Shown here: positions 26,650 to 46,488 of the stretch, one piece after another
Numbering within the stretch: position 1 is the first letter of the stretch
How the letters are laid out: every line of letters starts with the position of its first letter
From: Streptococcus infantis
GTDB lineage: Bacteria; Bacillota; Bacilli; Lactobacillales; Streptococcaceae
Direction of reading: 5' to 3'
DNA length: 64,000 nt
Assembly: GCF_021497965.1 (NCBI RefSeq)
Contig: NZ_CP046525.1
Coordinates: forward strand, 1,364,001 to 1,428,000
Program-made: the position numbers and the translations under genes
The notes under the pieces: model-generated
What the model saw: only the letters and a program-made list of their open reading frames with translations
The model's database searches: none
Told to the model about the DNA's origin: nothing

Positions 26650-27558
26650 TTAATCACTCTCACTAGTAAATAAATCTTCCCACTGAGTGATAGATGCTGG
26701 TAGGATTAATTTATATTTCTCATAGAAATTTAATAAATCGTTGTCCCCTATCCTAAATACATTTTCTATCTTATCTAAATTTATTACTCTCGGAGCATAT
26801 AAATATACTAGATAACCTTCATCTACATATTGTTTAAATTCTAAAGCGTCAAGTTCCTTTGCCTTTTTGCCTTTCACTTGAACTACTGCTTTTCTAGGGT
26901 CATCAATTTCTCTTGAAATCATTTCACATTCAATTTTTATTGTTGTTGACTTCTTTGCAATTGAATTAGAAAGGACATAATAGTTTTCCTTAATTTGAAG
27001 GTATGAGATGACAAGTTCTTCTAAATCAAATTCAGGCAAATTATCTAAGAGACCTCCACTATAGGTTGTTACCTCAAAATAATTCTTTTTCGAAAATTTA
27101 TTAAATATCAATTTTGAGTATTCTATTATACTTTTATCCCGTATCCTCTCGACGGTAGCACCAAGAGGTCTATTAAACGATGCTTTAATTTGCCCAGGGA
27201 CTTGCATTCCCACATTAAATGCATCAACTGGGATGACTGATCCAATATCCAAATGAGTATCGCAAACTACTATAGCTGGAGATTTTACTTTACAAATCCA
27301 GTAATTTCCACTTAAATCTCTGGTCCAGAACAAATCATCTTTCTTTGCATCTCTAAAAATATTTATTGCTGGATGTGCTTTACCATTATGTTTTTTAATA
27401 CGATTATAATATTCTAAAAAATTATCTAATTTAATATCTTCACTCAACCAACTCCAGCCAATCGCAACATACTGTTCAGAATTATTTAAACAGAAATCAA
27501 TTAACTCTTTCCTAATGTTATCGTCTCTTTTTAAATGTATTCTAGTCACATAATCCAT
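26650..27558 (-). CDS. Possible PUA-like (EVE/ASCH-type) domain plus PD-(D/E)XK nuclease
   Basis: Protein of 302 aa. The N-terminal half has a pattern seen in PUA-fold readers of modified bases: YVAIGWSW at about residue 30, then DLFWTRDLSGNYWICKVKSP at about 75-95. The C-terminal half has IECEMISREI (about 212) followed by KAVVQVKGKKAKELD (about 226-240), the E...QxK arrangement of the PD-(D/E)XK fold, as in Mrr-type endonucleases. The stop-to-start gap to the gene before it is only 5 bp, so the two are made together. I infer a restriction-type nuclease that senses DNA through the PUA-like part; no close family is recognised. Confidence 0.6.
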   Translation of the reverse strand: MDYVTRIHLKRDDNIRKELIDFCLNNSEQYVAIGWSWLSEDIKLDNFLEYYNRIKKHNGKAHPAINIFRDAKKDDLFWTRDLSGNYWICKVKSPAIVVCDTHLDIGSVIPVDAFNVGMQVPGQIKASFNRPLGATVERIRDKSIIEYSKLIFNKFSKKNYFEVTTYSGGLLDNLPEFDLEELVISYLQIKENYYVLSNSIAKKSTTIKIECEMISREIDDPRKAVVQVKGKKAKELDALEFKQYVDEGYLVYLYAPRVINLDKIENVFRIGDNDLLNFYEKYKLILPASITQWEDLFTSESD

Positions 27559-27563
27559 TTAAA

Positions 27564-28367
27564 TTAGCCTCTCTTACTTTTTTCTTTCAAGATTATTTCG
27601 ACTCCCGCTTGATGTAAAATATCATATCTAGCACGACTTATATCTGATTCATCGATTAAATTAAGAAGATTATCAATTTCTTTTCTTCCTTCTTCACTTA
27701 ACTTTGGCTTTATTTCAACTAAATTTTTTTGTAGTCTAAAAAACAATTGAATAGCTACTTCATAATCTTTTTTCTCTTGTAATTCTTGCTGCTTAGCTAA
27801 AATTTCTTTTTCTTTCTCTTCATTTTTCTTCCTATTTTGTTCAGCCATATCACGAAGCTTTTCATAATCCACTTTGTGATTCTCAAAGTCATCTTTGACT
27901 GACCCCATAAATTTAGGTGTGATTCGAATACGATTATAGGCATTTTTGACTAAGGAAGTGATTTTATCCCAATAAGGTACTTCTGAGTCTTCTCGGAACA
28001 TTAATATTTCTCTATCCGTTATGACAATTTTCTTTTCTTCATCAATGAAATATCCTTTTTCTTTGTAATTATTTAAATCAGAAATATACTTGTCTAATCT
28101 CCACTGTTTGACAATTTTTTTGCCATTGTCAGATAAATCATCGTCGACTATATATCTATATAACCAATCAGGAAGATTAACATCACCTATTGTCCATCTT
28201 TGCTTCTCATCTGAATATATTTCATTTCTTAGTTCTCTATCAGGAAATTTAACTTTATTATAAACGTACTTAATAATCTCATCACCCTCTTGAATGTATT
28301 CGTTCCAATACTTGTCATACTTAGCGTAGGGGCTAAATGGTCGAGTTCTATATATAACTCTACTCAT
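27564..28367 (-). CDS. Hypothetical protein with central coiled coil
   Basis: Protein of 267 aa, start ATG 28367 with AAAGGAGA. It has an N-terminal globular part (IYRTRPFSPYAKYDKYWNEY), a segment FIDEEKKIVITDREILMFRE, a highly charged coiled coil at about residues 165-205 (KLRDMAEQNRKKNEEKEKEI), and a helical end. I do not recognise it. It is translated just ahead of the nuclease gene at 26650-27558 and probably forms its partner subunit. Nothing shows a catalytic site. Confidence 0.75.
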   Translation of the reverse strand: MSRVIYRTRPFSPYAKYDKYWNEYIQEGDEIIKYVYNKVKFPDRELRNEIYSDEKQRWTIGDVNLPDWLYRYIVDDDLSDNGKKIVKQWRLDKYISDLNNYKEKGYFIDEEKKIVITDREILMFREDSEVPYWDKITSLVKNAYNRIRITPKFMGSVKDDFENHKVDYEKLRDMAEQNRKKNEEKEKEILAKQQELQEKKDYEVAIQLFFRLQKNLVEIKPKLSEEGRKEIDNLLNLIDESDISRARYDILHQAGVEIILKEKSKRG

Positions 28368-28447
28368 TTCATCTTCTCCTTTAGTTTATATAATTCACAG
28401 TATTCTTTTCTAACAGACAAAAATTTATCTTATTCGCTCTCAAACTT

Positions 28448-29398
28448 CTAGTCAATGTAATTTTCTTGCATTCTCTTAATAAGAGTTTTTACATCATCAA
28501 TTAACGATTGAGGAGACAAAACCGTTAGAGCATCCGCTTGACTCAACAACCACCTCTTCAGCCCTGGTGTATCTTGACTCACAAACTCAATAATATTGCC
28601 AGTTGATGTTTTTTCAATAATTGTTGCTAATGGAAATTGATCAACAACAATCGCTGGATCATTGTCGAATAGAACTCTGATATTTAACTCTTTTCCTATG
28701 AATGGATCTACTCGTTTATTACGAATTTCTCCATCTCGAAATTTTCTTCCATATGAGAGAGAAGGTTTTTCTTTTTTAGATTCTTTCCAACTGAGTATTC
28801 TATCTAATTTTAAAGTCATATAAGAATCAAAAAGTAAATTATAGGCTACTATGTAAAAATAATGAGTATCATAGTAAAGAGAAACCGGAAAAATTGTATG
28901 TCTCTTTTCAGTATTATAAGGAGATTGATAATCAATGTCTAAGACCAACTCTTTACGAATCATTTCAGACCATTCCCAAACCTTATCAATACGGTTTTGT
29001 GTATCTGACAGCGGTGCATAATTTAGCAACTCACTTGCAATAATACTGGAAACTTCTTTTTGCTCATCTTTTGAAATAAGTGCCAATAAACTATCAAGTA
29101 ATGACTTGTTTTCTTCTTTATTCAAAGAACGATTTTCTAGTAAAATCTTTGAAATTACAAGAATATCCTTTTTATTAAATAAAGATTTTCCTTTTAAATA
29201 CCTAGTATGGTGCCTCGTATCGTAGGCAAGTTCTGCTGCAACCATCGGTTGTGTATCTAAGAAACCCGACAAGAGAGAAAAATCTCGTTGTATAGTCTTT
29301 TCACTAACACCAAATTCATCTGCAAGCTGAGCCTTAGCTAAATGCGCGCCAGACTGTAATCGTAAAAATATAGTTAATAAGCGTTCTTGGTCGTTCAT
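28448..29398 (-). CDS. WYL-domain transcriptional regulator
   Basis: Protein of 316 aa. Residues 1-60 form a DeoR-type winged helix (FLRLQSGAHLAKAQLADEFG, VSEKTIQRDFSLL). The middle part (about 150-215) is a WYL domain with HTIFPVSLYYDTHYFYIVAY and LKLDRIL. The C-terminal part (about 240-310) is the usual WCX-like extension. Regulators of this kind (BrxR, CapW) often control phage-defence operons in answer to a nucleic-acid ligand. It has its own promoter (29422-29451) and divides the cluster into an upstream and a downstream group. That it controls both groups is inference. Confidence 0.88.
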   Translation of the reverse strand: MNDQERLLTIFLRLQSGAHLAKAQLADEFGVSEKTIQRDFSLLSGFLDTQPMVAAELAYDTRHHTRYLKGKSLFNKKDILVISKILLENRSLNKEENKSLLDSLLALISKDEQKEVSSIIASELLNYAPLSDTQNRIDKVWEWSEMIRKELVLDIDYQSPYNTEKRHTIFPVSLYYDTHYFYIVAYNLLFDSYMTLKLDRILSWKESKKEKPSLSYGRKFRDGEIRNKRVDPFIGKELNIRVLFDNDPAIVVDQFPLATIIEKTSTGNIIEFVSQDTPGLKRWLLSQADALTVLSPQSLIDDVKTLIKRMQENYID

Positions 29399-29421
29399 AT
29401 AATCCTAAATCCTTTAACAAT

Positions 29422-29451
29422 ATTATAACATTTCCAATGACTTAGATTCAA
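29422..29451 (-). promoter_or_regulatory. Promoter of the WYL regulator gene
   Basis: Minus strand: -35 TTGAAT (29446-29451), 18-bp spacer, -10 TATAAT (29422-29427), 23 bp ahead of the start codon; AAAGGAT serves as ribosome site. Confidence 0.65.
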
Positions 29452-29535
29452 TCAATTTCCTAGTTCAAATCTTCTACCGATACAACTATTGGACAAGTAC
29501 CTAATCTTTCTTTTAAAGTCTATTATAGGTTACTC

Positions 29536-31401
29536 CTACCTTCCGAATCCTATCAACGATATTGATTTTGATGATTTTGCTTCAATAGCTACAATAGCCT
29601 TATTGATATCTGTCAATGTAATTTGATTTAAAAAGGTATCATCTTCTAACTGATTCTTATCACCTTCAATCACTCGTTGTGCTTGACTGAAGACAATCTC
29701 ATCTACTAATTTTCGAACGTATCTAGCATTTCCAAAGTTTTTACAATTGACAACTTCTGAAAAATGCTGACGTAGTACCATCTTACAATCATCAGTTAAT
29801 TGATAATATCTCTTATTTATCATCAATTCCAAAATAGCAATTAGTTGTTCAATTGTATAATCCAAAAATTTTATTTCTCTAGAAATTCTAGAGGAAAGTC
29901 CCGGGTTAGTTTCAATGAATTGGGCCATCAATTCTTCATACCCAGCAAAAATAACCAACACCTCATCCCGACGATTTTCCATTTCTTGTATAAGCGCTGA
30001 AATAGCTTCATGTCCAAAATCTCTCTCACTACTAGGGATAAGACTATAAGCCTCATCTATAAAGAGTACTCCTCCTTTCGCTTCATCAAAAGCTCTTTTT
30101 ACTTTTGGAGCAGTCTGTCCAACATATTCACCAACAAGGTCCGCACGCCCCACTTCCACTAACTTATTCTCTTGAATTATCTTGTTATTGTATAAAATTT
30201 TTGTATAAAGCCTAGCCACTATAGTTTTCCCAGTCCCAGGATTTCCGGAAAAAACGAGATGACGATTTAATATTTCATTACTAAATCCATGAGCCTGACG
30301 CAACGCAGAAACTCGATCATAAGCTAACTGCTGATTAAGGACTATCTTCACTTCTTCTAAACCAATTAATTCACTCAACTTTTTCTCCGCATTTTCTTCA
30401 TCTTCAACTGAAGATTCATTTTGGAGAATAAATCCATCCAGATTTAATTCGTTTTTATCTGTAGGATCATAATTATTTTGTACTGCAAATTCAACAAGTT
30501 CTTGAACAAAAAGTCGAACTTCTTTAGCATCCTTTAGTACTTTATTTCCAGCTATTAATTGTTCATAGTCTTCATTACTCAACTGAATACCTTTTTGATT
30601 TAACATTTGAAGGCCGATCTCTTTAAGCTCTGCTTCATCATATTGCGGAAAATTAACAATTGATACTTTACTAAAATCTTCAAGTAATTCTTTTCTAATA
30701 GATTCTGCCTCCTGCCTAGTTCTCGCAATAATGACATTAAATGAATATCCCTTTTTTTGCCTAAAAACATCAAAAACATCTGATTTTGTTCTTGGTCTTG
30801 CTGAAAGATAATCAACTAATACTGGGAAATCTTTTTCGCCTATCTTAGGAATAAAAAAATTGTTACAATTTACAAATATTGCATTCATGCCAAAAAGAGA
30901 CATCAGAAATTTGATAGCAAACTTACGGCCAGATCCCCTCTCACCATTAAAAATATAAAAGTGTTGCTGTTGTTCATTATCATTTATTTTTTCTTGAAAT
31001 GAAAGATATGTAATTAGTTCTTGAACAGCCTTCTTAAAATCAGTGAGACCATAAATGTTTTTCAATTCATCCAGTTTTTCAAAATTAGGTTTTAGATAAT
31101 GAGAAATTGTTTCTTTATTTGCACTTAATAAGAATTTTACTAGTTCTCTTCTATCACTTGTTTCAAGTTTCTTTATAAAATCACTTTCTGATAGAGTTTT
31201 AACTTTGTTTAATGTAAACTCATGATCAAAAAAATCCTTTATTTTCCCCATGATTTCTTGATCATTGTAATTTTCTTTAGAAATAAGGTAATAAGCGTCA
31301 TCCTCTTTAAATAGTAATAAACGATTAGTCTTAATAAAATCTTCTGTTTGAGTTTTTAAGAAATCATCAGGATTCTTAAACTCAACTTGATAATAATTCA
31401 T
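29536..31401 (-). CDS. Double AAA+ ATPase, SpoVK/CbbX type
   Basis: Protein of 621 aa. Residues 1-100 are an unknown N-terminal part (YYQVEFKNPDDFLKTQ). An AAA-like domain at about 105-300 carries a deviant P-loop GERGSGRK near residue 154. The second AAA+ domain (about 340-600) is a full CbxX/CfxQ type: LIGLEEVK, GNPGTGKT near 387, GEYVGQTAPKVKRAFDEAKG, Walker B GGVLFIDEAYSL near 446, and sensor segment GNARYVRKLVDEI. Such rings remodel proteins or nucleic-acid complexes. RBS GAGGTG precedes the start. It lies between a terminator (31437-31467) and the WYL gene. In this setting it is a likely effector or loader of the neighbouring nucleases, by inference. Confidence 0.9.
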   Translation of the reverse strand: MNYYQVEFKNPDDFLKTQTEDFIKTNRLLLFKEDDAYYLISKENYNDQEIMGKIKDFFDHEFTLNKVKTLSESDFIKKLETSDRRELVKFLLSANKETISHYLKPNFEKLDELKNIYGLTDFKKAVQELITYLSFQEKINDNEQQQHFYIFNGERGSGRKFAIKFLMSLFGMNAIFVNCNNFFIPKIGEKDFPVLVDYLSARPRTKSDVFDVFRQKKGYSFNVIIARTRQEAESIRKELLEDFSKVSIVNFPQYDEAELKEIGLQMLNQKGIQLSNEDYEQLIAGNKVLKDAKEVRLFVQELVEFAVQNNYDPTDKNELNLDGFILQNESSVEDEENAEKKLSELIGLEEVKIVLNQQLAYDRVSALRQAHGFSNEILNRHLVFSGNPGTGKTIVARLYTKILYNNKIIQENKLVEVGRADLVGEYVGQTAPKVKRAFDEAKGGVLFIDEAYSLIPSSERDFGHEAISALIQEMENRRDEVLVIFAGYEELMAQFIETNPGLSSRISREIKFLDYTIEQLIAILELMINKRYYQLTDDCKMVLRQHFSEVVNCKNFGNARYVRKLVDEIVFSQAQRVIEGDKNQLEDDTFLNQITLTDINKAIVAIEAKSSKSISLIGFGR

Positions 31402-31436
31402 TTAATTTCACCTCTTTTTATTGATAATTTAAGTTT

Positions 31437-31467
31437 ACAAAAAAGAGTGGACAAAGTATGTCCACTC
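31437..31467 (-). terminator. Terminator after the zinc-ribbon gene
   Basis: Minus strand: GAGTGGACA-TACTT-TGTCCACTC followed by six T. It separates the helicase/HAD/zinc-ribbon transcript from the AAA gene. Confidence 0.85.
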
Positions 31468-31508
31468 AATTGTTGTTACAAAAAATTTTTCAAAAATGTA
31501 GAAAATCT

Positions 31509-31625
31509 CTATGCCTCCTCTGTATCTTCAGAACCACACCATCGACACTTTTTGAAGTTATCTGTTTCATCGACATCATAACTATAGTACCCTAGACATT
31601 CATTACAGTAACGATCAACTTCCAT
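31509..31625 (-). CDS. Small rubredoxin-like zinc-ribbon protein, 38 aa
   Basis: ATG at 31625 has a perfect AAGGAGG eight bases upstream. The product begins MEVDRYCNECLGYYSYDVDE and ends with KKCRWCGSEDTEEA: two CxxC knuckles (Cys7/10 and Cys27/30) in a fold too small for more than one metal ion. It follows the HAD gene by 32 bp and is followed by a terminator, so it is the last gene of the helicase transcript. The role is unknown; such peptides often bind Zn or Fe and act as partners of nucleases or ATPases. Confidence 0.8.
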   Translation of the reverse strand: MEVDRYCNECLGYYSYDVDETDNFKKCRWCGSEDTEEA

Positions 31626-31657
31626 ATTATCCTCCTTCTATACTTTAAAATTTACAC

Positions 31658-32350
31658 TTAACTAATATCATTTATCGAATAAATAACATCTTTACGTTCA
31701 ACAACAATATTACATGCTACCCCCTCTTTCTTTAGTTTATCCAATAACTTTTGATTTGGATTTATAGCTGTTGGATGACCAGTCATTTGAAGCATCGTAA
31801 AGTCACCTGTCGTATCCCCATAAGAATAAGAATTATCTAAATCAAAAGGCAGTCTCTCTAGAATTTTCTTTTTAGAATCAGCATCCCACATTGGAATTAC
31901 TTCTCCACTATACTTGTTGCCATCATTTAAGTATTGAGATGCAAACCATAAATCAGCTCCTAATTTTTCCGCCATTTTTTCAACTAGAAAATCCGGGGAA
32001 CCAGAAATAAAGATAATCTTATGTCCCTGTTCTTTGTGCCATTTAATACGATCGCGTGTAAAACGATAGAGCTTCTTACTTTCTTTTTCAATCACTTTTT
32101 TAGCCACAAACTCAACATCTAGAATATCCTTATTAGATATATATTTTGTATACAATTTCGATGCTGTATACAGATAATCATCGTAGTCTAGTTCTCGATT
32201 TTGCCAAGCATTTTTATGAGGTTTTAGTTCCATCTCTACTGATATTGGAAAAACATCATATGCAATACACTTCTCCATATGATGAAGAAGAAGTGAATCT
32301 CTAAAAATAGTCCCATCAATATCAAAAATTGCTGCAATTTCTCGACTCAT
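31658..32350 (-). CDS. HAD-IB family phosphatase (SerB-like)
   Basis: Protein of 230 aa with all HAD motifs: IFDIDGTIF at about residues 8-16 (nucleophile Asp), FISGSPDF near 115 (motif II Ser), DADSKKKIL with Lys, and YGDTTGDFTML near 187 (motif III/IV). The helical cap between 20 and 90 places it in subfamily IB with phosphoserine phosphatases. It follows the helicase stop by 27 bp. A phosphatase inside a nuclease-helicase operon is unusual; its substrate may be a nucleotide, a modified DNA end or a signal molecule. That is inference. Confidence 0.9.
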   Translation of the reverse strand: MSREIAAIFDIDGTIFRDSLLLHHMEKCIAYDVFPISVEMELKPHKNAWQNRELDYDDYLYTASKLYTKYISNKDILDVEFVAKKVIEKESKKLYRFTRDRIKWHKEQGHKIIFISGSPDFLVEKMAEKLGADLWFASQYLNDGNKYSGEVIPMWDADSKKKILERLPFDLDNSYSYGDTTGDFTMLQMTGHPTAINPNQKLLDKLKKEGVACNIVVERKDVIYSINDIS

Positions 32351-32377
32351 TTATTCTCCTAACTCTCTAGCCATTAT

Positions 32378-35300
32378 CTAATTTTTCTTATTTGACTGCG
32401 ATTCTAAATTCTCTTTCAATAATTGAAAATCTACAAATTCTCCCAATCGACAATAATCACAATCATCCTTACCACAACCACCAGTAAAATCAGCTACATT
32501 TACTTTATCATAGAATTCTTGAATCTGAGTACGAACTATATCCATATCCTCTTTTGTAACATTTACAGTATGGATGGAGTAGCCTTCTTTTGCATCATCA
32601 TCATCTAGGAAAATATATTGCGTTTCAATTCGTTTACCAGTAGTATCTATTTCAGAAAAATTTTCTAATAAAATATTATAGAAGACGGCTTGGCGCCAAT
32701 AATCACGTCCAACTGCGAGTTCTTCAACACCTCTCTGAGCAGAACCTGTCTTATAATCTACTACTCGAATCAGATCATCGTCAAATTCTAACTTATCTAT
32801 AATCCCATTAATTGAGTACTTATCTCCTAATTTGACACGAAGTTCTTTCTCTAAACAGACATTCTTCCCTTTTAAACTGTTAGGAATATAATGTTTAAAA
32901 AGATTGGTTAGTAAGCGATGCCCATATTCTTTTAATTCTTCAACGGACATTGTATCTACGATTTCCTCTTGATGTGAGTGCAATGAATTATCGTAGTATT
33001 CAATTGCTTTCCCCAATTGTAAATCTACTTTATAGATTTGTTCCATAGTTTCGTGAATTGCAGTACCAAACACAGGACCAGTTGGGGCATGCTTAACTGT
33101 TACTTTTGCAGCCTTTTCTTTTGTTCCTGCAGATAATCCAGCTGGTTGAGATAACTGTAAAACATCATCAAAATATACACTCTTCGGACAACTTAAGAAA
33201 CGATTCAATTTGCTAACACTTAAACTCTTATAGTTGTCTCGTGCTTGTTGGTAAGTTGCAACCTCTAAGGCTTCGGTATTATCAAATTTAGGTTCTCTAT
33301 TATCGAATGCTTGGAGGCAGTAGTCGCAAGGGTAATTATCTCTGTTCTTTTTCAATAGTCCACAACCACAATTAAAATCACCTTGTTTAATTTTCATAAT
33401 AGACTCTTTAATCTGATCAAGTACTATATCAACTTCCTTTTGAGTGATTCGTATATCTTCAGTTTCAGAAAAACCGTCTTCACTAGTTGAATCCTCAACA
33501 AAAACATATTTAACTAGTATCTCTTTGTTAGAAATATCGATATCGATATCAGCATTTGTAACGAGGATATAGTAGAATACAGCTTGGCGCCAGTAGTTAC
33601 CACCGAGAGGTTCTTTTTCACTCGGAGCTACTAATTTCTTTTTAGCATTTTCAGCTTCTCCTGTTTTATAGTCAATTAATCGTATAATACCTTCTTCACA
33701 CTCAATTTTATCAATTTTCCCATTTAACTCAACATCAGATACTTCTGATAGATCAACTTTGGTGTTCAAAATATCACCTAGCTTAATTCCTTTGATATGC
33801 TGCTCAACTGCAATTACACCATCTTTGAGATAACCAGATTTTTTGTAGAGATTTTCAATAATCTCTTTACCTCTTGCATAGACATCCGTCTTTACTCTAT
33901 CTGAAGATAGTTGATAAGATTTATCTAAGATTGTCTCAAATGATACTAAAGCTTCTTCTTTAGACAGAACTGTTTTTGCTGTTAGTTTCGAACTTTGCGA
34001 ATCATCCTTAGAACTATATATTTTTTCTAAGACTTCGTGAATGATACTACCAAATACCATAACTTCGTTTGTTTCAGATGATAATTTTAATCCCTTATTG
34101 AAATAAAAACTCAAAGGACATTTAAGGAAGTCACTCAATGTACTAACACTTAAACTTAATTCACCTAAAATTTCACTCAGAACATCATTAGAAAATTTTG
34201 GTACTACTACTTTTTCTACAGATTGACAATCTTCAAAAGATTCTGTTACTTCTACCGAATCAATAAAATTCTCAAATTCACTAATAAAGTGGGTTTTATC
34301 GAAATCATCAGAATAAGAGAGATGGAGTACCTTCTTTGCCCGAGTCATTGCAACATAAAATAGGCGACGATTCTCCTCTTCTTTCAGTTGAGATTCATTC
34401 TTAGCTTTTCCATTTAAGCTTGGTGGATAAGAGAACCTACCCGAATTATTTTCACCTCCTGGCCAATTTGTATTCTTTTGTTTTCCATCATTACATTTCA
34501 TCATAAATACATGTTCAAACTCCAGTCCTTTGGAACCATGAGCTGTCATTAATTGAACACAGTTACTTGGAGAACCCGAGATATCTTTAATGGGTAGACT
34601 AACCTTCATTTCTTGTAAAGACGATAATTGATTCAAAAATTCTTTTACAGTTAATTTAGGGTGGAGGATACATTCCGTTAACATTAACTCGTAAATTGTA
34701 TTTAAAGTAGAAACCAAGTGATATTTTTCTTTTGATTTCATGATATAGCCATCAATCCCTAAAGATTTTAAGAGTTCGCTAAGGATATACATAGGTGATA
34801 AGTATTTTTCCGATTTACTAATCTTTTTACGAATCGATTCTAATTTCTTATCAATTTCTGCCATTGAAGGAATAGAAATTTTTTCATCATTCTTGAGATT
34901 TCGTATTTTTGCGATTTCTGAGACTTCCACCTCAAAGAAATCAAAATATAAAATTTTTCGAAGTTCTCTAACATTTCTTGATGGTTGGCAAATATATTTT
35001 AAAATAGCTAGTATTTTTTTGAAGAAGGAATCTTTAAATAAATTCTTCTCTTCTTTTTTCATTTGAACGAAAATACCATTATCACGAAGAATCTTCGCAA
35101 ACTTTTCTCCATAGGAATTTCTTCCATAGATGACTCCTATCTCCTTAGGAGACACACCTGAATGAATCAACTCTTTAATCTCGTTCAACACACCAAACAT
35201 CTCAGCTTCTGCATTTGGGTAAGATTTTAAGATTGGCAATTGATAATCATAATCTTTGTTAGCGCCAGCTGCAACAAGAAGCTTCTCTTCTCTTGGGTTA

Positions 35301-35785
35301 TGACTGATTAGTTGTCTAGAAGCATCAATGATAGCTTGGGAAGAACGATAATTCTCTTCAAGGATTATTTTCGTAGGTTGATACTCCTCTTCAAAAACTT
35401 GAATATTATCTGCACTTACTCCTTGGAAACGATAAATACTTTGATCATCGTCTCCTACAACAAAAATATTTAGTTTCTCTTTCTCTTTCCCTTTTACTAA
35501 TAATTTTATGAGTTCATACTGAATAACTGAAGTATCCTGAAATTCATCCACAAATAAATATTTTATAGACTCAGATACACTTTTTTGAAATCCTTCATCT
35601 TTCTTCAACTTTTTAATAGTCTTCAGAATCATATCATCAAAATCGAAATAATTATGCTCTCGGATTTTTTCACGATATTTTTCTACAATGGATACACCAT
35701 CAAGTAATCGTTGATACTTTTTTCCCCCCTTGCATTCTTCAATTTTCTTTTCAATTTTAGCTTTATTCAACCCTTGACGTTTCAT
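32378..35785 (-). CDS. UvrD-type helicase with two PD-(D/E)XK / Fe-S nuclease modules (main part)
   Basis: Reading frame of 1135 aa that continues the 160-aa frame upstream after one in-frame stop (TAA, 35789-35791). Helicase motifs: LFVDEFQDT, VVGDDDQSIYRFQG, LEENYRSS, VQLMTAHGSKGLEFEHVFM and EEENRRLFYVAMTRAKKVL. Then two copies of an AddB/Cas4-like nuclease follow. Copy one (about 540-830): DFLKCPLSFYF, IIHEVLE, ELNGKIDKIE, IRLIDYKTGE and a C-terminal Cys cluster. Copy two (about 855-1120): RFLSCPKSVYFD, AIHETMEQIY, GIIDKLEF, VVDYKTGS and CGKDDCDYC. Each copy keeps the catalytic H, D, D-K set and four Cys for an Fe-S cluster. The ATG at 35785 lies 3 bp behind the stop, so re-initiation is possible. 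Role in DNA degradation or phage defence is inferred. Confidence 0.9.
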   Translation of the reverse strand: MKRQGLNKAKIEKKIEECKGGKKYQRLLDGVSIVEKYREKIREHNYFDFDDMILKTIKKLKKDEGFQKSVSESIKYLFVDEFQDTSVIQYELIKLLVKGKEKEKLNIFVVGDDDQSIYRFQGVSADNIQVFEEEYQPTKIILEENYRSSQAIIDASRQLISHNPREEKLLVAAGANKDYDYQLPILKSYPNAEAEMFGVLNEIKELIHSGVSPKEIGVIYGRNSYGEKFAKILRDNGIFVQMKKEEKNLFKDSFFKKILAILKYICQPSRNVRELRKILYFDFFEVEVSEIAKIRNLKNDEKISIPSMAEIDKKLESIRKKISKSEKYLSPMYILSELLKSLGIDGYIMKSKEKYHLVSTLNTIYELMLTECILHPKLTVKEFLNQLSSLQEMKVSLPIKDISGSPSNCVQLMTAHGSKGLEFEHVFMMKCNDGKQKNTNWPGGENNSGRFSYPPSLNGKAKNESQLKEEENRRLFYVAMTRAKKVLHLSYSDDFDKTHFISEFENFIDSVEVTESFEDCQSVEKVVVPKFSNDVLSEILGELSLSVSTLSDFLKCPLSFYFNKGLKLSSETNEVMVFGSIIHEVLEKIYSSKDDSQSSKLTAKTVLSKEEALVSFETILDKSYQLSSDRVKTDVYARGKEIIENLYKKSGYLKDGVIAVEQHIKGIKLGDILNTKVDLSEVSDVELNGKIDKIECEEGIIRLIDYKTGEAENAKKKLVAPSEKEPLGGNYWRQAVFYYILVTNADIDIDISNKEILVKYVFVEDSTSEDGFSETEDIRITQKEVDIVLDQIKESIMKIKQGDFNCGCGLLKKNRDNYPCDYCLQAFDNREPKFDNTEALEVATYQQARDNYKSLSVSKLNRFLSCPKSVYFDDVLQLSQPAGLSAGTKEKAAKVTVKHAPTGPVFGTAIHETMEQIYKVDLQLGKAIEYYDNSLHSHQEEIVDTMSVEELKEYGHRLLTNLFKHYIPNSLKGKNVCLEKELRVKLGDKYSINGIIDKLEFDDDLIRVVDYKTGSAQRGVEELAVGRDYWRQAVFYNILLENFSEIDTTGKRIETQYIFLDDDDAKEGYSIHTVNVTKEDMDIVRTQIQEFYDKVNVADFTGGCGKDDCDYCRLGEFVDFQLLKENLESQSNKKN

Positions 35786-35788
35786 CCT

Positions 35789-36271
35789 TTAAAATAGTTC
35801 TAATAATTGCTTCTTAGAAGAATAACGATCTCCACTGTTTTTATATAATGAGCTATTTTCCGTTATATACTCATCCATAATTTCTTTAAGTAATTCATAC
35901 TTCACAGCTGTCGAAATTACTTTTGGTTGTCTTCCAAACAAATCTGAGTTTTCCAAAATTAACTCACTACAAAAAGAGTGAATAGTCGATACTCTAACTT
36001 TTCGCCCTTCTTCACCGATTAATCCTTCAAGACGATCCAACATTTCAGATGCACCCGCGTCTGTATATGTTAAACAGACAATCTCTTCTGGATGTGCCTT
36101 GTCCTTTGTCAAAATGTTGGCTACTCGACGAGAAAGAATCTGAGTTTTACCTGTACCAGGACCAGCAATAACCATTACTGGTCCTTCTATAGCATCAACT
36201 GCTTTTTTCTGTTGCTCATTCAGTTTTTTATATTCTTGTTCATAAATGTCTTTAAAATCCTTTAATACCAT
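35789..36271 (-). CDS. UvrD-type helicase, N-terminal part (160 aa), ended by an in-frame TAA
   Basis: Holds the first helicase motifs: LNEQQKKAVDAIEGPVMVIA, Walker A GPGTGKT, then LTYTDAGASEMLDRL and VRVSTIHSFCSELIL. The frame stops at TAA (35789-35791) and goes on in the same register as the 1135-aa frame. Together they would give one protein of about 1297 aa; a single base change would join them. RBS AGGAG precedes the ATG at 36271. Either this strain carries a nonsense mutation, or the protein is made in two chains. Without the Walker A part the main fragment cannot act as a helicase. Confidence 0.88.
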   Translation of the reverse strand: MVLKDFKDIYEQEYKKLNEQQKKAVDAIEGPVMVIAGPGTGKTQILSRRVANILTKDKAHPEEIVCLTYTDAGASEMLDRLEGLIGEEGRKVRVSTIHSFCSELILENSDLFGRQPKVISTAVKYELLKEIMDEYITENSSLYKNSGDRYSSKKQLLELF

Positions 36272-36316: not shown

Positions 36317-36349
36317 ATTATAACACTTAGCATGGACGATTAACGTCCA
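36317..36349 (-). promoter_or_regulatory. Promoter of the helicase operon with a palindrome over the -35 region
   Basis: Minus strand -10 TATAAT at 36317-36322. The place for the -35 box is covered by the perfect inverted repeat TGGACG-ATTAA-CGTCCA (36333-36349). No good -35 hexamer is visible, so the promoter may need an activator, or the palindrome is a repressor site. The WYL regulator of the cluster is the obvious candidate. Confidence 0.55.
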
Positions 36350-36440: not shown

Positions 36441-37523
36441 ATGAAATCATATATTGAAGCAATTGACCAAACACTAAATCATAAATTATCAATGAGTAAT
36501 ATGGAGCTATACCACAGCAATTTACTTGCAAGAGTACTTGAAAAGTATAAAGAAGAACCGTTTTCGTTACTGGAGGGAGTAGTTCCAAACTATAAAGCAT
36601 ACCGTACCATTTGTGTAGAAAGGGAGAGTAAACACAAAGACTTAACTATTATACTTTCAAACGGAAATCAAACTATAACAGTAATTATAGAAAACAAATT
36701 CAAATCATTACCTGAACGAGAACAATTAGAAAAATACACAACTAAGGATAGTAATATGTACTATATTCTTCTATCTCTAACAGAGCCTGAAAAGGATATC
36801 TTACCAGAAAAATGGTGTTGGAAAAATTACGATGAATTAAGTAAATATTACTCAAAAATAGCAAAGAAGACTAATGATTTACTCTTTAAGGAATTTCTAA
36901 AGGATTACATAAGGTATATTTCGGCAGTATCTAAACTATTAAATGCAAGCGAACTTGATATGGAATTAGAAAAGTATTATATAGAACCATCTGTGAGAAA
37001 AGAATTAAAAAATATAGGATTAGTTGATTTAGTAGATAAAATTAGATATGAAAAAATGAAAAACAGAATTAAGTGTAACAACGGAATTGGTAGACCCTAT
37101 TCTAATAGAATGAGTGGAGGATTTTATTTTGGTTATAATTATGAAATAAATGAATATCTAAGTTTTGATATACAAATTCAGGGAAACCAATATCGTCATA
37201 AACTAAACATTAAAAAGAGTATTGGAAAATCCAAGGAGGAGTTGATTGATATTTGTGAAGATTTAAAAACAAAGAAATTATTTTTCACTTTCGAAAAAAA
37301 TGATTTTTTAATCACACCTTCAAGAAGAAGAAACAATTGGAATAAATATGAAAGTGATAAATCAATTGATTTGTATGATTATAAAAAGATTGTGGATCAA
37401 GCGACTTTTAAGGATTTGATTACTTATATTAATAACCAAATTAAAATATTAGTTCGTAATTCTAAAGAAATTGAAAATTTGGTAATGAATGAAGAACAGA
37501 CTTCAAGAAACTTAAAAAAATAG
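36441..37523 (+). CDS. PD-(D/E)XK nuclease superfamily protein (PDDEXK_4-like)
   Basis: Protein of 360 aa, start after GGAGG, with TATAAT further upstream. The N-terminal domain reads MELYHSNLLARVLEKY, then ESKHKDLTIIL (Asp) and VIIENKFKSLPEREQLEKYT, the E-x-K active site and the Q-L-x-x-Y that follows it in PF14281-type proteins. The remainder (about 180-360) is a lysine-rich domain of unknown type. It is transcribed away from the helicase operon and stands alone. Such proteins are common in accessory and defence regions, but no defined pathway is known to me. Confidence 0.8.
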   Translation: MKSYIEAIDQTLNHKLSMSNMELYHSNLLARVLEKYKEEPFSLLEGVVPNYKAYRTICVERESKHKDLTIILSNGNQTITVIIENKFKSLPEREQLEKYTTKDSNMYYILLSLTEPEKDILPEKWCWKNYDELSKYYSKIAKKTNDLLFKEFLKDYIRYISAVSKLLNASELDMELEKYYIEPSVRKELKNIGLVDLVDKIRYEKMKNRIKCNNGIGRPYSNRMSGGFYFGYNYEINEYLSFDIQIQGNQYRHKLNIKKSIGKSKEELIDICEDLKTKKLFFTFEKNDFLITPSRRRNNWNKYESDKSIDLYDYKKIVDQATFKDLITYINNQIKILVRNSKEIENLVMNEEQTSRNLKK

Positions 37524-45288: not shown

Positions 45289-46488
45289 TTAATAGGGTGG
45301 TTTTATTTTTGAAAATGCCCTCTTTAATTCATTTATATCACTAAATCTTTGATTCAAATTTGGATTTGTTCCCTTATTAATAAATTCCTCTAAATTACTA
45401 TATTCAAATTTTGTAAAGTCTTTATATCTTCCAGTTAAGACAAAGTACAATAATTTTGACAAAGCAAAACCTTCAAAATGAAAATTATAATTACAAAACC
45501 CAACTCGTTGGAGTCCTGAATAATCATTAAATGCACCTCTTATTTCTGTATCTAGAGATGTTAACATGCTATTACTTAACTTTACATTCCCCAAATCAGC
45601 AATTTTAATAATTTTTACATCATCATACTCTTTAATCAAAATATTATTAGGTGATATATCTCTATGAAGTATATCTTTTTTAGCTAGATACTCAAATCCT
45701 TTTATTATTTGATAACCTAGGTTCATTCTCTCGGAAAAAGTCAATTTCTGATTATGAGTCTTTATATATTTAAAAAGTGAAGTGTCAGCATACTCCATAA
45801 CATACTCATTTTTCGTTTTATCAATAGAGTAAACTTCGAGTACATACGGAGAATGTAACTGCTTCATTATATCAAATTCTAAATAAAATCGCTCTAAATC
45901 TTTGAATAGAATAGTTTTTTTTGCACGTTTTAATGCAAAAGTTTTGTTGTAATTTTCATCATAGAAACTAAATACAGTAGCATAAGAACCATCACCAACT
46001 GTTTTCAATTGGAACCGTTGTATAGTGTTATTCGGGAGCTCGAGAATATCCGATACTTCAAAAATTGGTAACTCATAGTATATTTCAACTTCCGACATAT
46101 CATCTGGTACTGGGCTTCCACCAGATGACGATAGAAAACTATTACATTTTTTTAATACTTTATCATAGTATTCAACAATTCTAACTTTCTCACCAGAATT
46201 CTTAAGGTTGTTGACAAATCTGTTTGATAGTGAAATTGATTTTATCAAATTTCTACTTGGTTCAGCCCAGAAATGTCTCCCACCATTTATACTATCATTT
46301 AATATTCTTAATCCCTTCACCAACTGATAGTGTATGCTAGAACATAACTTACTCAGTCTGTCATCAAAAATATCTTTGTAAAGATGTTCATAATCAATAG
46401 CAAACTCTTTACCAAAGTAATCCAAATAATCCCTTTCAATACCTACTATACTATTTAATAGTTTTACATTATTATTTACAGAAATCAA
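45289..46488 (-). CDS. Eukaryotic-type Ser/Thr protein kinase with N-terminal helical domain
   Basis: Protein of 399 aa. Residues 1-150 are a predicted helical domain of unknown type. The kinase domain follows: glycine loop VGDGSYATVFSF (about 166), Lys in FALKRAKK (about 185), LHRDISPNNIL (catalytic Asp, about 275), and IADLGNVKL (about 296), where DLG stands for the usual DFG. All residues needed for catalysis are there. No membrane helix and no PASTA repeats, so it is not the housekeeping StkP but a soluble cytoplasmic kinase. It is the last gene of a three-gene group with 47851-46597. Soluble kinases of this kind occur in phage defence (for example Stk2); such a role is inferred from context. 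Confidence 0.9.
   Translation of the reverse strand: MISVNNNVKLLNSIVGIERDYLDYFGKEFAIDYEHLYKDIFDDRLSKLCSSIHYQLVKGLRILNDSINGGRHFWAEPSRNLIKSISLSNRFVNNLKNSGEKVRIVEYYDKVLKKCNSFLSSSGGSPVPDDMSEVEIYYELPIFEVSDILELPNNTIQRFQLKTVGDGSYATVFSFYDENYNKTFALKRAKKTILFKDLERFYLEFDIMKQLHSPYVLEVYSIDKTKNEYVMEYADTSLFKYIKTHNQKLTFSERMNLGYQIIKGFEYLAKKDILHRDISPNNILIKEYDDVKIIKIADLGNVKLSNSMLTSLDTEIRGAFNDYSGLQRVGFCNYNFHFEGFALSKLLYFVLTGRYKDFTKFEYSNLEEFINKGTNPNLNQRFSDINELKRAFSKIKPPY

Follow-up and report, generated by a model that had tools for sequence, protein, structure and literature searches.

In this work we have analysed a 64,000-nucleotide stretch of the Streptococcus infantis contig NZ_CP046525.1 (positions 1,364,001 to 1,428,000), referred to below as the window, and in particular a 9.6-kb run of genes which an earlier note, made from the letters alone, had presented as one undescribed defence cluster with seven kinds of protein. 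The DNA does look like defence DNA. On balance, however, we favour the reading that it holds two adjacent gene sets with a common control site: an intact module, and a captured piece in which the helicase is broken. The source genome (1.71 Mb) is G000 in our comparison set of 284 genomes of the genus; a further set comprised 398 genomes of the class.

Genes of the locus

Read from position 36271 down to 26650, the genes all lie on the minus strand, where the earlier note had placed them, in the order helicase (in two pieces), HAD hydrolase, 38-residue protein, AAA ATPase, WYL regulator, C267 and P302. From the lower coordinate upwards, the features are:

26650..27558, minus strand: P302, candidate modification-dependent nuclease (match to the PADLOC candidate PDC-S02; C-terminal motif by eye)
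27564..28367, minus strand: C267, partner of P302 within the cassette, judged coil-rich by eye (adjoins P302 in relatives)
28448..29398, minus strand: WYL regulator, HTH-WYL-WCX (Pfam)
29536..31401, minus strand: SpoVK/CbbX-like AAA+ ATPase (Pfam AAA, TIGR02881 below its cut-off, alignment)
31448..31464, no strand: palindrome TGGACA-N5-TGTCCA 5' of the AAA gene, proposed WYL operator (fixed-spacing search)
31509..31625, minus strand: 38-residue CxxC...CxxC protein, zinc-ribbon-like (motif by eye)
31658..32350, minus strand: HAD-IB hydrolase (TIGR01490)
32378..35785, minus strand: broken UvrD helicase, C-terminal part with two PD-(D/E)XK domains (Pfam, comparison with relatives)
35789..36271, minus strand: the same broken helicase, N-terminal part with the Walker A half (UvrD profile, same frame)
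36333..36349, no strand: variant palindrome TGGACG-N5-CGTCCA 5' of the helicase (site search)

We take them as two adjacent transcription units, AAA-WYL-C267-P302 (unit A) and helicase-HAD-zinc ribbon (unit B). The ATPase of unit A had been described as a SpoVK-like protein with two AAA+ domains. The resemblance to SpoVK holds, and Pfam recognises one AAA domain, at the C-terminus (3.2e-19), but in the N-terminal half the P-loop is degenerate (GERGSGRK) and the matches were weak, in Pfam and by alignment. In NCBIfam the protein resembles SpoVK, CbbX and EccA and stays below all three cut-offs; its score with the SpoVK model TIGR02881 is 280.9 bits, and the equivalog cut-off of 422.95 is not reached. 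The regulator is the WYL protein that had been predicted, with Pfam matches to WYL (1.6e-8), WCX (7.5e-7) and HTH_11 (4.5e-5, below the cut-off). The closest named records in a search with it came from the streptococci S. pseudopneumoniae, S. infantis and S. peroris, which we take to belong to the mitis group.

P302 has 302 residues and is matched over its full length (residues 3-299, E 5.5e-52) by the PADLOC profile PDC-S02 (PDLC04816). Matches to this profile occurred in 18 of the 398 class genomes, and outside the genus they covered the N-terminal part only, with one exception (L155/L173). Two of these N-terminal matches are proteins of 768 and 832 residues with an AAA_5 domain, which makes them McrB-like, and the gene beside the second encodes McrC (Pfam, E 1.9e-69). 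Since the DNA reader of McrB lies at its N-terminus and P302 shares its own N-terminal domain with such McrB-like N-termini, we call this domain reader-like. In the C-terminal half E180, E181, E210, E212, Q227 and K229 are invariant in eight sequences, and by eye they make a plausible PD-(D/E)XK core. This fold is unsupported by Pfam, NCBIfam or a PDB profile search, which weighs against the assignment. The second nuclease with a possible base-reading domain foreseen by the earlier note stands as plausible, on its PDC-S02 match and reader-like N-terminus, with no profile hidden Markov model (HMM) confirming the nuclease fold; we consider P302 a probable candidate for a modification-dependent nuclease. 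The ratio of nonsynonymous to synonymous substitution (dN/dS) was 0.10-0.27 in both halves of P302 in six pairwise comparisons, showing purifying selection. We also considered a faster-evolving reader half and found no support for it: among the six pairs the reader was less alike in four and the nuclease half in two. The halves differ in dS along with dN, a pattern suggestive of mosaic exchange, with the gene itself kept. Relatives of P302 with 55% identity are found on five S. salivarius plasmid records, and our scans found none in viral contigs. A fragment of P302 (residues 151-302, 91% identical) at L045:5064-8740 in genome G030 adjoins a gene which by eye resembles a cytosine-5 DNA methyltransferase. 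C267 had no family match above cut-off in Pfam, PADLOC or NCBIfam.

The helicase of unit B is encoded by two open reading frames (ORFs) of 160 and 1135 residues in one frame, with a TAA at 35789-35791 between them; positions 1-123 of the Pfam UvrD profile lie in the N-terminal ORF and positions 149-271 in the other. The domains named in the earlier note, a UvrD helicase with two PD-(D/E)XK stretches, are present according to Pfam, but the gene is split by the stop codon and lacks about 40 codons relative to the open copy of 1337 residues in genome G002. The helicase is also open in G094 and G339, and the copy of G255 is frame-broken near the same place. Could the split be programmed? We considered this because of G255 and set it aside: two lesions affect the window copy, and in three relatives the frame runs through at that place. 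As far as the sequence tells, we take the gene of the window to be broken. The two small proteins agree with their earlier descriptions: the phosphatase is a HAD-IB hydrolase above its NCBIfam cut-off (TIGR01490, 138.8 bits against 98.3), and the zinc ribbon is indeed a 38-residue CxxC...CxxC protein, by eye. The latter had no convincing family match, and among the loci fetched up to that comparison it was seen solely in the window and G002.

An ATPase-regulator pair with exchangeable cassettes

The earlier note had suggested following the neighbourhoods of the AAA and the 267-residue protein through other genomes. Full-length AAA proteins (E 1e-65 or better) were found in 28 of the 284 genomes, at 29 loci; all of these, the window included, were compared after clustering of the neighbouring ORFs. 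Among the matches listed outside the genus (196 relatives, 37 genera), the C-terminal half only was covered. A WYL gene adjoins the AAA gene, or comes after a small gene behind it, at 28 of the 29 loci, and the sole exception has a truncated AAA. The slot 3' of WYL is filled by a GmrSD pair at 16 loci, by P302 at ten, which include C267 in eight cases and in either gene order, and by Nmad2 with Nmad3 at one (L076); two loci (L042 and L071) have no complete cassette. Pfam domains were called for one GmrSD pair, Nmad2 and Nmad3. GmrSD is a family which restricts modified DNA, and the Nmad domains are named for nucleotide modification. Three unrelated cassettes thus occupy the slot behind the same ATPase and regulator, and what moves as a set is the AAA-WYL pair together with an exchangeable cassette. 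Some loci show damage or oddities of their own. In L087 the smaller GmrSD protein is split, and the upstream neighbours of L071 include a protein of 511 residues with a weak match to a GmrSD HMM built here. In L072/L139 (Streptococcus sp. k-402) AAA, C267 and P302 are uninterrupted and WYL is split into ORFs of 155 and 123 residues, so that here the regulator has been lost naturally.

Records of S. suis carry either kind of cassette, a GmrSD pair in L097, L099 and L101 and P302-C267 in L098 and L100. Four pairs were compared, and in these the AAA-F4-WYL DNA shows 91-96% identity over 3.6-4.8 kb; the loci lie at one location, with the same 433-residue gene on the far side of either cassette. 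L098 moreover retains two 358-bp remnants, one from the AAA 5' region and one from the large GmrSD gene (3' region, 98% identical to L099), which are relics of a previous module. On a WYL tree with 50 rows the cassette label must have changed at least nine times, and the well supported branches by themselves demand three or more changes each for GmrSD and P302. The tree is a quick one, with 10 of 46 inner branches well supported and 8 of 58 rows left out (L094, L107, L112, L131, L132, L133, L137 and L143); L139, whose WYL is broken, is not in it. Only the cassette label was used, because the labels of the gene before WYL are rough: a 172-residue ORF of L152 and the ORF of L113 had been labelled DnaA-like by length alone.

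A scan by WYL alignment, with one genome per species, gave 53 loci, which were annotated with HMMs built in this analysis. Here WYL is constant and the gene before it varies, being the AAA, a protein like DnaA domain III, or a DnaB motor-domain protein. The DnaA-like protein of L075 is recognised as Bac_DnaA (E 1.2e-23), and that of L118 is degenerate (E 1.1e-4, missing the cut-off by a tenth of a bit). The gene order is DnaA-WYL-DnaQ-DnaB-GmrSD pair in L115, AAA-DnaB-WYL-DnaA-DnaQ-P302 in L102 and DnaB-WYL-DnaA-DnaQ-GmrSD in the S. suis phage phi-SsuFJZZ32_rum; L111 carries a GIY-YIG protein. With a protein of 461-464 residues in G345 and G000, presumably the replicative helicase, the DnaB-like protein shares 55-57% identity, and the DnaA-like protein shares 35-39% with the presumed DnaA of these genomes. 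The neighbours are different for the WYL homologues of other genera, whose identity is about 30%. Replisome look-alikes (of DnaA domain III, the DnaB motor domain and a DnaQ-type exonuclease) inside WYL-restriction loci were also noted as a group in L102, L115, L130, L182 and L116-L128, and in mitis-type loci the module lies directly behind polC.

Is the ATPase then a working part of the module? It may be that WYL only regulates, that AAA serves elsewhere, for example as a chaperone for another target, and that each cassette (P302, GmrSD or Nmad) is a self-sufficient nuclease which happened to land downstream of a suitable regulated promoter. GmrSD is known to need no AAA partner for its action, and many WYL-GmrSD loci here are without AAA. 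The S. salivarius plasmid relatives of P302 also count against our interpretation and for this one: in the one stretch examined there was no AAA, WYL or palindromic site near the gene. On the other side, an AAA or another ATPase-like gene (DnaA-like or DnaB-like) stands directly before WYL in most annotated loci, and AAA and WYL remain together through cassette exchange. We regard self-sufficient cassettes as an unlikely explanation, though one to be taken seriously, and keep to a module of ATPase, regulator and cassette.

That all seven kinds of protein of the 9.6 kb act together as one undescribed defence system, as the earlier note had it, appears very unlikely. In its favour, the genes share a strand, the palindrome stands at both units (in G002 as well as in the window), and G002 has the complete set with an open helicase. 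But the genes do not travel as one set: helicase and HAD, and with them the full set, are found at 2 of the 29 AAA loci, the window and G002, and AAA-WYL-P302 occurs without helicase, HAD and zinc ribbon at 8 of the 10 P302-bearing loci. The helicase is present in 6 of the 284 genomes, beside this AAA in the same two, and in the window it is broken. These neighbourhood counts led us to reject a single seven-part system, and they bring the outcome which the earlier note had itself named as refuting it. Where, then, does unit B come from? In G094, G255 and G339 (loci L151, L152 and L153) the helicase lies behind a WYL gene, a Clp-like double ATPase and a gene for a protein of 176-179 residues without Pfam match. 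A small gene of 76-81 codons accompanies this arrangement in varying position, and G002 keeps a relative of it before its helicase. A HAD protein with 72.6% identity lies near the helicase of G094, beyond a KAP-type NTPase, and G337 has a helicase fragment close to a contig end. Because the helicase belongs elsewhere to this separate arrangement of WYL and Clp-like ATPase, unit B appears to derive from a second WYL-controlled system, part of which was captured beside AAA-WYL. The broken helicase, the exchange of cassettes and the palindrome linking both halves go beyond what the earlier note had described.

A palindrome shared by both gene sets

The element TGGAC-N7-GTCCA recurs between the genes of the modules. 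In 1.07 Mb of WYL loci searched with spacers of 2-14, the spacer was 7 in 30 of 35 matches; when inverted repeats were required to have exact arms, only scattered ones were obtained, and the site emerged with the fixed-spacing search. With at most one mismatch, TGGACA-N5-TGTCCA occurs 53 times in 28,391 nucleotides of module DNA and 3 times in 223,801 nucleotides elsewhere in the same loci. Both regions are DNA outside ORFs of at least 210 residues, and module DNA begins 140 nucleotides before the first module gene and ends at the gene that follows WYL, no more than 420 nucleotides beyond WYL, a definition outside which the site of L151, about 200 nucleotides before WYL, falls. Of the 179 further palindromes made up of these letters, the most frequent has one copy in module DNA. 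Forty-three of the 44 loci have a site with at most two mismatches, and most sites lie 35-51 nucleotides before the first gene, or soon after WYL and before the cassette. The level of 0-1 mismatch was reached in 28 of 44 upstream regions, against 4 of 880 random windows of 139 nucleotides from the same loci. The exact site occurs 74 times in the 284 genomes, 33 times within 5 kb of a WYL gene; by our own arithmetic the remaining 41 (0.14 per genome) are about the number expected by chance, and the pattern read backwards, as a control, was counted about 21 times. WYL gene and site occur together in 32 genomes, WYL alone in 29, the site alone in 31 and neither in 192 (Fisher p 2e-9, kinship ignored).

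In genome G000 the sequence TGGACR-N5-YGTCCA occurs three times, and two of these are at this locus. The site before the window AAA is exact, and that before the helicase has two mismatches and is still palindromic; in G002 the AAA gene is preceded by an exact copy and the helicase unit by a copy with one mismatch. In G094 and G255 the site reads TAGACA-N5-TGTCTA. Their WYL proteins are 47-49% identical to that of the window and have RTAQRY in the presumed recognition helix, whereas the others have KTIQRD, and in G339 both KTIQRD and TGGACA are kept. Such co-variation of helix and site is suggestive of a pairing of the two, in few lineages.

Several observations weigh against so simple a picture. 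The 44 loci include near copies (14 loci on the polC side, and L096 with L180), so that counts over them are not independent. The exact site lies within 5 kb at just 31 of 64 WYL loci in the 284 genomes, the letters being variable, and 31 genomes have an exact site without a WYL gene (E 1e-60). In the window itself, the helicase-side site is 61 nucleotides before the helicase and 91 before a divergent gene at 36441, which it could serve instead, and the AAA-side site overlaps a terminator-like stem (31445-31467) followed by T6, of which it may simply be a part. That the palindrome is in general a recurrent bidirectional terminator is nevertheless extremely unlikely, since, this window copy aside, most copies stand 35-51 nucleotides before the first module gene or between WYL and cassette in unrelated arrangements, and the letters of the arms are conserved beyond mere pairing, the other 179 palindromes being almost absent. 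Taken together, the distribution and letters of the site make it very probable that the WYL protein pairs with the palindrome as its putative operator. In G054, which has no WYL match at E 1e-60, two exact palindromes (C14:148510 and 151549) lie 3 kb apart, spaced as in full modules; perhaps a more distant WYL or a new cassette is present there.

Possible working of the module and its relation to known systems

Unit A would be an intact streptococcal module of a type IV-like restriction kind, and is probably directed against phages. We picture WYL dimers occupying TGGACA-N5-TGTCCA and keeping expression low until a signal of infection acts on the WYL domain and releases them. The nuclease of the cassette, here P302, would then recognise modified phage DNA through its N-terminal domain and cut it, and the AAA ring might load or remodel the nuclease or its complex with DNA. 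We propose only tentatively that AAA is a remodeller of the cassette. A bolder idea, speculative and quite unlikely, is that the site defines a streptococcal family of plug-in defence loci in which the ATPase position is filled by copies of host replisome parts (DnaA domain III, DnaB motor, DnaQ/PolC-type exonuclease) or by the SpoVK-like AAA as decoys or sensors: a phage protein made for replisome takeover would bind the look-alike, and this would license the modified-DNA nuclease or lift WYL repression. If the decoy reading were true, a guard-type trigger would be coupled to type IV restriction. If our main reading holds, one short palindrome and one regulator family mark interchangeable defence loci across streptococci, new nuclease cassettes could be found by searching for the site, the part of replisome look-alikes and the SpoVK-like ATPase in phage sensing would become testable, and the uncharacterised PADLOC candidate PDC-S02 would gain partners and a likely control circuit.

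No named system was matched in PADLOC-DB 2023, and in the open literature we found no paper, judged by title or the start of the abstract, which describes the AAA-WYL-cassette locus; this agrees with the claim that no named defence system has this composition. Control of defence genes by WYL proteins and type IV restriction are known already, according to PMC9122601, and what appears new is the AAA-WYL-cassette module with its conserved palindrome. The same paper describes HTH-WYL-WCX regulators, BrxR and CapW, which adjoin varied defence genes including type IV restriction, have palindromic sites near their loci and are said to be structurally solved, with BrxR homologues reported mostly from Proteobacteria (PMC9122601). 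The window WYL has the same HTH-WYL-C-terminal domain architecture and palindromic sites nearby, but its gene lies inside the operon, with a site conserved across the genus. A WYL profile matched no PDB chain at E 1e-3, and no direct BLASTP to BrxR was run. An ATPase of the SpoVK family also appears in a type IV restriction neighbourhood in the type III-A extension of CoCoNuT, where, according to PMC11090510, it is flanked by VWA genes and lies beside the McrBC-like CnuB/CnuC. The likeness is a SpoVK-type ATPase in a (putative) type IV restriction setting; in contrast, no VWA, CnuB or CnuC was found in the window cluster.

With McrBC the locus shares an AAA+ ATPase beside a putative modified-DNA nuclease, and the N-terminal domain of P302 is common to some McrB-like N-termini. 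However, the window ATPase is SpoVK/CbbX-like, and among the proteins scanned there was no McrBC or AAA_5-type match above cut-off. As for GmrSD, two GmrSD_N proteins are encoded at 16 of the 29 AAA loci, and in the pair examined it is the larger one that has GmrSD_C, whereas GmrSD_N and GmrSD_C are absent from the ten window proteins scanned and P302-C267 fills that slot. To our knowledge the AAA-WYL pair is not part of GmrSD. Unlike for this known family, we infer a role of P302 in restricting modified DNA from its sequence. PDC-S02 is listed in PADLOC as a single protein, which is presumably what its S stands for, whereas P302 here has partners. Gabija was rejected as well: the helicase resembles GajB (1.2e-52), but for the ten proteins no GajA was among the matches listed.

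The surroundings bear out the earlier note in part. It had reported a restriction-modification system next to the cluster; of three flanking genes checked, one had a weak methyltransferase match (E 2e-6) and two had none. The divergent gene (36441-37523, plus strand) matches PDDEXK_4 (E 1.4e-5) and, weakly, PDC-S26, and its start is near enough to the variant palindrome that it may share that control. Farther away, a Ser/Thr-kinase-like protein (45289-46488, minus strand) shows similarity to MAD6, which belongs to the defence system MADS, at E 4.8e-17 but falls far short of the cut-off. The setting in an integrative and conjugative element agrees with a MobT-like relaxase and an FtsK-like ATPase nearby, both below cut-off.

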